Assembly: GCF_000429585.1 (NCBI RefSeq)
Contig: NZ_AUCD01000002.1
Location: 1 to 64,000 of the forward strand
Origin: Atopococcus tabaci DSM 17538
Lineage (GTDB): Bacteria > Bacillota > Bacilli > Lactobacillales > Carnobacteriaceae_A
Length of the DNA: 64,000 nt
Reading direction: 5' to 3'
Made by a program: the position numbers and the translations under genes. Shown piece after piece: positions 26,840 to 29,166 of the stretch. Below the pieces are notes generated by a model, which had not been told where the DNA came from, did not search any database, and saw only the letters and a program-made list of their open reading frames with translations. The stretch's first letter is position 1; each line of letters starts with the position of its first letter.

Positions 26840-28414
26840 TCAATTCGATTGAAGCGCTTGTTTTTCTTTCAGGAGCCGTTGGAATTCTTTGTCGAGTTCT
26901 TCTGTGGGATTGAGGCTTAACCGGCTTAACACGTCTGCAATGGCTGTTTCCACCATCAACAACCGGTCTTCGGTTGTATCGCGTTCTTTTTTCTGATCAC
27001 GAGTTTGAAAGGCTTCATAGTCTCCGTCGAATAAAGTCAATTCTCCCTCTTTCAATGAAAGAATCCGTGTGGCAATTGCGGACACAAACCGTCTGTCATG
27101 AGACACAATCAAAACAGTCCCCTCATACTCTCTCAACAAGTCTTCCAAGGCTTCCAGAGCGTACACATCCAAATAATTGGTTGGTTCGTCCAGTACAAGC
27201 GTGTTGCTGTCGCTGACAAACAATTTGGCCAGCGACACCTTCACCCGTTCCCCGCCGCTCAATACCGATACGGACTTGTAGACATCTTCTTGGTAAAAAT
27301 GCAGACGCGCCAACACTGTCCGAATCAACGTTTCCGATTGATGCGAATCTTGGGATACGTTCTCCAAAATAGTCTTCTCAGGCTCCAACACACTCAAGTT
27401 CTGAGCAAAGTACCCGATTTTCATCGCGGGGGATCGGTATACCCCTGCTTCATCTGCTTCCAGGATCCGCTTCAACAACGTCGTCTTGCCGCTGCCGTTT
27501 GGTCCGATGATGCTGATTTTGTCACCGCCTTTGACAAAAAACGTCGCGGGTTTCCACAACCGCTTGTCTCCAATCTTGCCTTCCAACCCTTCCACCCGCA
27601 AGATGATTTTGTCCTTAAACGCCCGCTCATTCGGCAAGTCCATCTTCACCGGTGCATGGTCTTTTGGCTTTTTCACTTCTTCCAACTTTTCCAACCGCGT
27701 TTGGATGGCTTTGGCTCCTTGGTTCAATTTCTTCTGTTTTTTGGCGAAATACGGTTTAGATCCTGTGATGCGGGCTTCCGATGGCGAGACCTTTTTAGGT
27801 GCCTTCGTCGCTTTGGCGGCTTTTTGTTTTTTCTGTTCCAACGCGTTCGTCAACTGGCGTTCTTTGTGTTTGTATTTTTCGTATTCGGTCTGCTGGTGCT
27901 GGCGTTCCCGTTGTTTCTGCTCGATATATTGGGAATAATTTCCCGTGTAAACCGTGATATTGCCGCTTTCCAGTTCCCAGATGGTGTCACAAACAGCATC
28001 CAACAGCTGCCGGTCATGGGAGACCACAATCAACGCGCCATTGAATCGTTTCAGTTCTTTTTCCACCCACTCCACATGGCTTGTGTCCAGATTGGTCGTC
28101 GGTTCATCCGCCAACAGCAGCTTGGGTTGCGCCTCGATCGCTTCGGTGATATATTCCGCCGTGATCTCTCCCCCGCTTTTGACGGTGTCCGTCCGCTTCA
28201 GCTGTGGGAGCAAAGCGGAAGTGCCTTGGACCGATACGGTGCCTTCGTCCGGCATTTCCTCGCCATTCAATACGCGCAGAAGCGTCGTCTTGCCTTCTCC
28301 GTTTTTCCCGACCAGCCCGATCCGCTGCCCTTCTTGCACTTGCAGATGGGACATACGAAACAACTCGCGGCTGCCGATTGTCTTCTTTAGTTGGTTTATT
28401 TCCAATACAGTCAT
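26840..28414 (-). CDS. ABC-F ribosomal protection protein, Vga/Msr type
   Basis: A 524-residue soluble twin-ATPase without membrane segments. Domain 1 has Walker A GKNGEGKT (36-43), the TKSGGE-like signature VKSGGE and Walker B LLLADEP. Domain 2 has Walker A GPNGSGKT (304-311), LSGGERV (385-391) and LVLDEPTNYLD. The long charged interdomain linker includes KPYFAKKQKKL. Motif by motif it follows Vga(A), which displaces lincosamides, pleuromutilins and streptogramin A from the ribosome. Resistance here is inferred, not shown. ATG 28414 has AAGGAG upstream and shares one base with the stop of a 40-codon leader ORF. The longer frame upstream is leader, not protein. Confidence 0.88.
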   Translation of the reverse strand: MTVLEINQLKKTIGSRELFRMSHLQVQEGQRIGLVGKNGEGKTTLLRVLNGEEMPDEGTVSVQGTSALLPQLKRTDTVKSGGEITAEYITEAIEAQPKLLLADEPTTNLDTSHVEWVEKELKRFNGALIVVSHDRQLLDAVCDTIWELESGNITVYTGNYSQYIEQKQRERQHQQTEYEKYKHKERQLTNALEQKKQKAAKATKAPKKVSPSEARITGSKPYFAKKQKKLNQGAKAIQTRLEKLEEVKKPKDHAPVKMDLPNERAFKDKIILRVEGLEGKIGDKRLWKPATFFVKGGDKISIIGPNGSGKTTLLKRILEADEAGVYRSPAMKIGYFAQNLSVLEPEKTILENVSQDSHQSETLIRTVLARLHFYQEDVYKSVSVLSGGERVKVSLAKLFVSDSNTLVLDEPTNYLDVYALEALEDLLREYEGTVLIVSHDRRFVSAIATRILSLKEGELTLFDGDYEAFQTRDQKKERDTTEDRLLMVETAIADVLSRLSLNPTEELDKEFQRLLKEKQALQSN

Positions 28415-28536
28415 TACAATGGTCTCCTTCCATATACAGGAGCACAAAAAAAGCTCCCAGACATGGGAGCTTTCGCATGGCAAAGAAGCCTTGTGACAGG
28501 CAAACCGACTTTGCGCAAACATTGCTCCCATTTCAT
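28414..28536 (-). CDS. Leader ORF 2 (40 residues) overlapping the ABC-F start
   Basis: This frame starts at ATG 28536 and ends TAA at 28414-28416, sharing one base with the ABC-F ATG (TAATG). It begins MKWEQCLRKVGLP and spans the terminator hairpin, so a ribosome translating it would open that hairpin and arrive at the ABC-F RBS. No clear RBS precedes it. Its start overlaps the stop of leader ORF 1 (TGATG). Coding status is inferred from geometry only. Confidence 0.4.
   Translation of the reverse strand: MKWEQCLRKVGLPVTRLLCHAKAPMSGSFFCAPVYGRRPL
28450..28530 (-). promoter_or_regulatory. Transcription attenuator in the ABC-F leader
   Basis: Reading left, GCTCCCA (28464-28470) and TGGGAGC (28453-28459) form a tight stem followed by TTTTTTT, a textbook intrinsic terminator upstream of the ABC-F start. 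A second TGGGAGC (28524-28530) upstream can pair with the same GCTCCCA and would prevent the terminator. The two pairings are mutually exclusive. This matches the ribosome-mediated attenuation known for ABC-F genes such as vmlR and vgaA. Confidence 0.7.
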
Positions 28537-28595
28537 CAAACGTCACGCAGACACAACGAAACAAGCCTCTTACAGGCAGGTATTTCGGTCTGCAT
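28536..28595 (-). CDS. Leader ORF 1 (19 residues)
   Basis: A short frame from ATG 28595 encodes MQTEIPACKRLVSLCLRDV and ends in a TGA that overlaps the ATG of leader ORF 2 by one base. No strong RBS is visible. It could be a drug-sensing leader peptide of the kind found before ABC-F and erm genes, but there is no comparative evidence. Confidence 0.3.
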   Translation of the reverse strand: MQTEIPACKRLVSLCLRDV

Positions 28596-28707
28596 TGTTT
28601 TTTGGAAATAGGTTTAGTTGCGCATCGTCTTTTGGCTTACCCTCACTTTATTTGAATGGTCATTTCTCTTACAGATTACTGCAAGGAAATTTATTTGTCA
28701 AACTAGA

Positions 28708-29166
28708 TTACTCCGCCAGGGCCAATGCGGCCGCCGGTTCACGTTTCATCCACACATGCGCGATGCCGGAACGAATCTCCGGTTCGGCCACTTCACGAAA
28801 GCCGTAAGACGCGTACAATTTTTTGATGTAGACTTCTGCGTTCATTTCGATTACATGTTCCGGATACGTTTCATCGATATAATTTAATGCAGTGTCAAGC
28901 AGTTCGCGGGACAATCCTTTTCCCCGGTATTCTTCACGGACAAGGATTCTTCCGATATGGATGGCCCCTTCTTCGGTTTCAAAAATACGGGCATTGGCAA
29001 CAACTTTTCCGTCTACAACCTTGAAAATGTGCGTACTGATCAAGTCATTTTCATCGGCGTCCAAAAAAGGCGATTGTTGTTCGACGATAAACACTTTCAT
29101 TCGTTCCATATACAGACTGTGCAATTCTCTTGTTGTCAATTCGTCAAATTTTTTAAAGTGCCACAT
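28708..29166 (-). CDS. GNAT N-acetyltransferase, ElaA-like
   Basis: A 152-residue GNAT enzyme. The N-terminal half has YMERMKVFIVEQQSPFLDADEND, the ElaA-type VVEQ-P-D pattern. The acetyl-CoA motif is GRILVREEYRGKGLSREL (about 72-89). The acceptor substrate is unknown. GGAGG precedes the ATG. It stands alone between the ABC-F leader and a divergent membrane-protein gene. Confidence 0.85.
   Translation of the reverse strand: MWHFKKFDELTTRELHSLYMERMKVFIVEQQSPFLDADENDLISTHIFKVVDGKVVANARIFETEEGAIHIGRILVREEYRGKGLSRELLDTALNYIDETYPEHVIEMNAEVYIKKLYASYGFREVAEPEIRSGIAHVWMKREPAAALALAE

Follow-up and report, generated by a model that had tools for sequence, protein, structure and literature searches.

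The window, which is the whole stretch of 64,000 nucleotides that was analysed, carries on its minus strand a gene for an ABC-F ribosome protection protein of 524 amino acids (26840..28414). The protein scores 752.1 bits against the NF000170 profile, for which the cutoff is 725, and this places it in the Vga family. The solved structures nearest to it are 7nhl_0, a lincosamide-streptogramin A resistance protein, and 7nhn_0, which is Lmo0919. The gene starts at 28414 and has a strong SD of its own, with an anti-SD duplex of -8.1 kcal/mol. It is preceded on the minus strand by a leader of approximately 250 nt, from about 28666 to 28415, which is flanked by the ABC-F gene and by a gene for a GNAT-family acetyltransferase (28708-29166) on the far side of the leader from ABC-F. 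The leader is far more stable on folding than shuffled sequence (z = -5.96).

Promoter, uORF and pairing segments of the leader

The promoter (28673..28701, minus strand) consists of TTGACA (28701-28696), a spacer of 17 nt and TAATCT (28678-28673). It was spotted by eye and then confirmed through its conserved position, since a TTGACA box is found 65-76 nt 5' of the uORF in 20 of the 21 leaders compared (L019 is the exception). The spacing between this box and the -10 is 16-18 nt in the leaders compared. A simple promoter scanner gave no site on the minus strand because the -10 of the window matches at three of six positions.

A tripeptide uORF, ATG CGC AAC TAA (ATGCGCAACTAA, 28614..28625, minus strand), encodes Met-Arg-Asn and is the proposed antibiotic sensor of the leader. 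Its SD, GAGGG (28640..28644, minus strand), is located 14 nt 5' of the ATG and forms an anti-SD duplex of -6.5 to -7.6 kcal/mol. This spacing is long yet conserved, and a GGAG, GAGG or AAGGG core is found at similar spacing before the uORF in the other leaders listed. The uORF motif occurs once in the genome of the window, at this locus.

Downstream of the uORF there are four pairing segments on the minus strand. Segment A (CCTATTTC, 28605..28612) begins 1 nt past the uORF stop and is the 5' arm of an anti-antiterminator in which it pairs with segment B (GAAATGGGAGC, 28524..28534). Segment B can also pair with segment C (GCTCCCA, 28464..28470) to form the antiterminator, and segment C is common to the antiterminator and the terminator. 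Segment D (28446..28459) is the 3' arm of the terminator and is made up of TGGGAGC (28459-28453) and a tract of seven T (28452-28446). The intrinsic terminator stem, GAAAGCTCCCA-TGTC-TGGGAGCTTTT (28474-28449), has 11 pairs. In the minimum-free-energy fold the uORF and its SD are contained in SL-1, a large anti-antiterminator hairpin (28493..28646, minus strand) with an outer stem formed by GTGAGGGTAAGCC (28646-28634) and GGTTTGCCTGTCAC (28506-28493). The first-pass annotation had given the terminator arms as GCTCCCA (28470-28464) and TGGGAGC followed by seven T, and the sequence is as it claimed. It had also held that an upstream TGGGAGC, at 28530-28524, is able to take the first arm of the terminator, and this pairing proves to be conserved with compensatory changes. 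The promoter, the tripeptide uORF and the A arm (28612-28605) all lie upstream of the interval that it covered and were missed.

A further hairpin, CTCCT-GTATATGGA-AGGAG (28424..28442, minus strand), is predicted by folding to cover the ABC-F SD and resembles SL-4 of the vmlR leader. It is present in the predicted fold of the window, but in several relatives, L012 among them, no such hairpin is clearly evident. On the minus strand, D (GGGAGC, 28453-28459) and B are each complementary to GCTCCT in the SD-covering arm (28424-28442), and thus either of them could free the ABC-F SD in readthrough RNA.

The leader in related genomes

The uORF and the switch are found well beyond the window. Of 49 Vga-type leaders drawn from across Bacilli, 47 have Met-x-x-TAA followed by the A segment, whereas the rate in shuffled sequence is 2% per leader; the two that lack the uORF motif are L060 and L107. 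In the family of the window nearly every Vga-type leader has the uORF, usually as ATGCGYAACTAA followed by YCYYATTT. When 396 genomes of the order were searched for the uORF-plus-A pattern, the matches were this locus (once), the Vga leaders of the family and six sites elsewhere, and a reversed control pattern gave three matches in the same search. On inspection, the six matches from beyond the family (L061, L077-L081) all proved to be something other than Vga-type leaders.

The helices A-B, B-C and C-D are mutually exclusive and each shows compensatory changes. Among 21 leaders, 12 cells are changed on both sides of a pair in A-B (shuffle mean 2.4), 20 in B-C (6.2) and 18 in C-D (8.2), and none of 1000 shuffles reaches any of these counts, which indicate strength and are not probabilities because the shuffles ignore relatedness and the helix registers were picked by score. 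Selection of the registers by score also favours the paired percentages, and for L010, L011 and L022 the affected registers were set by hand ahead of the pair counts. The full helix set is found in approximately 22 further class-level leaders, for example with CCTGTT pairing with AACAGG in L087 and L101; for L093, L106, L109 and L110 the B-C and C-D set came out incomplete in the automated search.

At the level of sequence, the uORF together with segment A is the strongest conserved part of the leader. This has a bearing on whether the leader could be a riboswitch that binds a drug or metabolite directly, or a member of another Rfam class, and not a ribosome sensor. SL-1 is large and stable and a terminator/antiterminator switch is present, as would be expected of such an RNA. 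However, the best conserved sequence is a uORF and its adjoining segment, and no Rfam family reaches its gathering score in the leader, so that a reading of this kind is considered extremely improbable. The best Rfam match, RF01859 Phe_leader, reaches 26.4 bits where the gathering score is 55, and much of it lies on the terminator hairpin. As no Rfam family reaches gathering score, an alignment of these leaders could seed one.

The identity of the tripeptide is biased by lineage. MRN predominates in the family of the window and MKY in the remaining Bacilli that were sampled (L082-L110), and rarer forms include MKL, MIY, MDC, MIF and others. One genome has two Vga-type genes whose leaders differ, with MRN in L010 and MDN in L026 (G015:C95). 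In another (L013/L062, G002:C18) an intact MRN leader and terminator are located approximately 530 nt upstream of ABC-F in place of the usual approximately 260 nt, and about 270 nt of extra sequence separates the terminator from the ABC-F gene.

The genome of the window has a second ABC-F gene, on contig C78, which scores 677 bits for the Msr family and is just under the cutoff of 680. Its leader contains an ORF, MYSMRLRFVTLNR* (L003:1252-1293, plus strand), with a strong SD-like AAGGAGGA, and the peptide resembles the ErmD leader. The RLR motif is the signature of macrolide-sensing leader peptides, for example that of hflXr (PMC6310831). Thus a macrolide-type attenuator and a lincosamide-type one seem to be present together in this genome.

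Overlapping frames upstream of ABC-F

Two frames, ORF1 (28536..28595, minus strand; 19 codons and TGA) and ORF2 (28414..28536, minus strand; 40 codons and TAA), run end to end into the ABC-F gene. The one-base overlaps that the first-pass annotation described are both exact, TGATG between the two ORFs and TAATG at 28414. It had put these tandem leader ORFs forward as a distinct design, in which ORF2 spans the terminator and translation could run on into the main gene. In the corresponding model, ribosomes translate ORF1 and then ORF2, their passage across ORF2 keeps the terminator open, and translation is coupled into ABC-F at TAATG. The frames and their overlaps are real, and since ORF2 spans segments B, C and D its translation would disturb the terminator. 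However, neither frame has a convincing SD. The anti-SD duplex of ORF1 is +2.9 kcal/mol, which amounts to no SD, and that of ORF2, at -2.4 kcal/mol, does not surpass random sequence, for which the median is -3.0. ORF1 also lies within the strongly folded stem of SL-1, and the strong SD of the ABC-F gene means that translational coupling from ORF2 is not needed.

Comparison with relatives argues against this design as well. The chain of ORF1 and ORF2 was not found in the 48 other leaders, including those of the closest relatives, L010 and L011, which have about 60% protein identity, and ORF2 has no Pfam match. The alignment of the leader in relatives, which had been suggested as a check, thus has two outcomes: both pairings of TGGGAGC are kept and covary, but ORF1 and ORF2 are not conserved. 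With the TAATG junction taken as given, 3.9% of dinucleotide shuffles contain an ATG ORF of 40 codons or more, and 1.9% contain a chain of 20 or more plus 5 or more codons. The overlapping frames look like a coincidence, and one such is not surprising. With B, C and D inside ORF2, RNA structure constrains a large part of that frame. ORF1 and ORF2 are probably not genes, and control of ABC-F by their end-to-end translation is very unlikely.

ORFs that end near the ABC-F start are in mild excess, being found in 6 of 49 leaders where 1.5 are expected from a mononucleotide shuffle. One is that of the window, and another, in L096, is a TAATG-abutting ORF of 47 codons with an unrelated peptide and a different start position. 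The remaining four stop 4 nt before the ABC-F start, and three of these have their ATG within the conserved TATGCCTCCTATTCTG that surrounds segment C. Outside the window none of these ORFs resembles ORF2, and they were rejected as its counterparts.

A mixed arrangement can also be considered, in which sensing falls mainly to the tripeptide uORF, and ORF2 has been added in this lineage, its low-level translation coupling readthrough to ABC-F. The exact TAATG junction fits this arrangement, and a low level of initiation at 28536 on readthrough RNA would be compatible with the data. The same failings of SD and conservation apply, however, and L010 and L011 are without such an ORF, so we give a role of this kind to ORF2 very little credence.

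Among described systems, the closest parallel to the overlapping leader ORFs is are5sc, a Streptomyces ABC-F leader that has two conserved overlapping uORFs, only one of which was found to be translated by toeprint (PMC12421871). The overlapping ORFs are conserved in are5sc but not in the window. Since an ABC-F leader with overlapping uORFs is already on record, the idea of tandem leaders would not be wholly new either.

The proposed switch and known systems

The leader is best read as a transcription attenuator that works through the ribosome, like those of rli53/lmo0919, vmlR and vga(A), with the Met-Arg-Asn uORF as its sensor, and we put the probability of this reading at roughly 90%. Its basis is the anatomy, the conservation and the covariation of the leader. 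The first-pass annotation had recognised an attenuator of the vmlR/vga(A) kind, and this agrees with the covariation of terminator and antiterminator and with the score of the gene above the Vga family cutoff.

From this reading we infer that ribosomes stall, that the response is specific to certain drugs and that the gene is induced in this species, as follows. Without drug, ribosomes would finish translation of the uORF at once, A would pair with B within SL-1, C would be free for D and transcription would end in the T tract. In the presence of a lincosamide, a pleuromutilin or a streptogramin A, the initiating ribosome would be trapped at the uORF start. The footprint of the stalled ribosome, approximately 16 nt 3' of the AUG, would extend into A, and the SL-1 stem would also be covered. 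With A masked, B could capture C, the terminator would fail and RNA polymerase would transcribe the Vga-type ABC-F gene. A second level of control, at translation, probably comes from the hairpin that covers the ABC-F SD; such a layer has been published for vmlR.

Folding calculations are consistent with this switch. In the free leader the probabilities of A-B and of C-D are both about 1.0. When a ribosome is masked on the uORF AUG, B-C is the minimum-free-energy state with the RNA 3' end just past C and is still so when the terminator stem is complete. At equilibrium, in ribosome-masked RNA that extends through the terminator, the probability of B-C is about 0.2-0.3, and the switch must therefore depend on formation of B-C before D is synthesised. 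This suggests that the switch would be kinetic, that is, co-transcriptional.

The assignment places the control of this ABC-F gene in a known class that has been worked out experimentally, and the uORF/A/B/C/D switch accompanies Vga-type ABC-F genes across much of Bacilli. The lineage-biased tripeptides are a natural data set on the tuning of drug sensing by the codons that follow the start; for vmlR it is known to matter which tripeptide is encoded (PMC9226507).

Of the known systems, cplR from Clostridioides difficile has a short MR[I/M] uORF that is sequestered in a 5' hairpin ahead of a terminator (PMC10201436). The window has these elements in the same order, but in cplR the terminator hairpin itself sequesters the SD and the protein is clostridial and more distant. 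For rli53/lmo0919 (vgaL) from Listeria monocytogenes, the passages of PMC8079631 that describe Dar 2016 report a uORF of three amino acids that overlaps the anti-antiterminator/antiterminator. The lmo0919 leader is similar to that of the window in its uORF, its switch, its terminator and its Vga-like ABC-F gene, and ATGAAATTCTAATCCTGT in the lmo0919 record has the same form. The lmo0919 tripeptide is Met-Lys-Phe (MKF) instead of Met-Arg-Asn, and the protein is about 41% identical.

In Bacillus subtilis vmlR, a uORF (MIN) in SL-1 is followed by an antiterminator, a terminator and an SD-sequestering SL-4, and translation of the uORF is required (PMC9226507). By this published description the leader of the window is alike in its tripeptide uORF in SL-1, its antiterminator and its terminator, and folding predicts a hairpin in the place of SL-4. 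The vmlR uORF differs in encoding Met-Ile-Asn, and the NusG pause hairpin SL-2 is a vmlR feature. The uORF variants MDN, MDK and MRK have been tested, and of these MRK induced less strongly in the vmlR setting of B. subtilis (PMC9226507); Arg as the second codon is thus a point against Met-Arg-Asn as sensor.

A further likeness is seen in vga(A) and vga(C). Unlike the window's gene, these are found on staphylococcal plasmids and differ in codons 2 and 3 of the uORF, which is ATGATTAACTAATCCTATTTT (MIN) at -228 in vga(A) and ATGAAATACTAATCCTATTG (MKY) at -233 in vga(C). Their proteins are 52% and 59% identical, respectively, to that of the window. Both share the A segment of the window, and their B segment is AGGATAGGAT / AGAATAGGAT.
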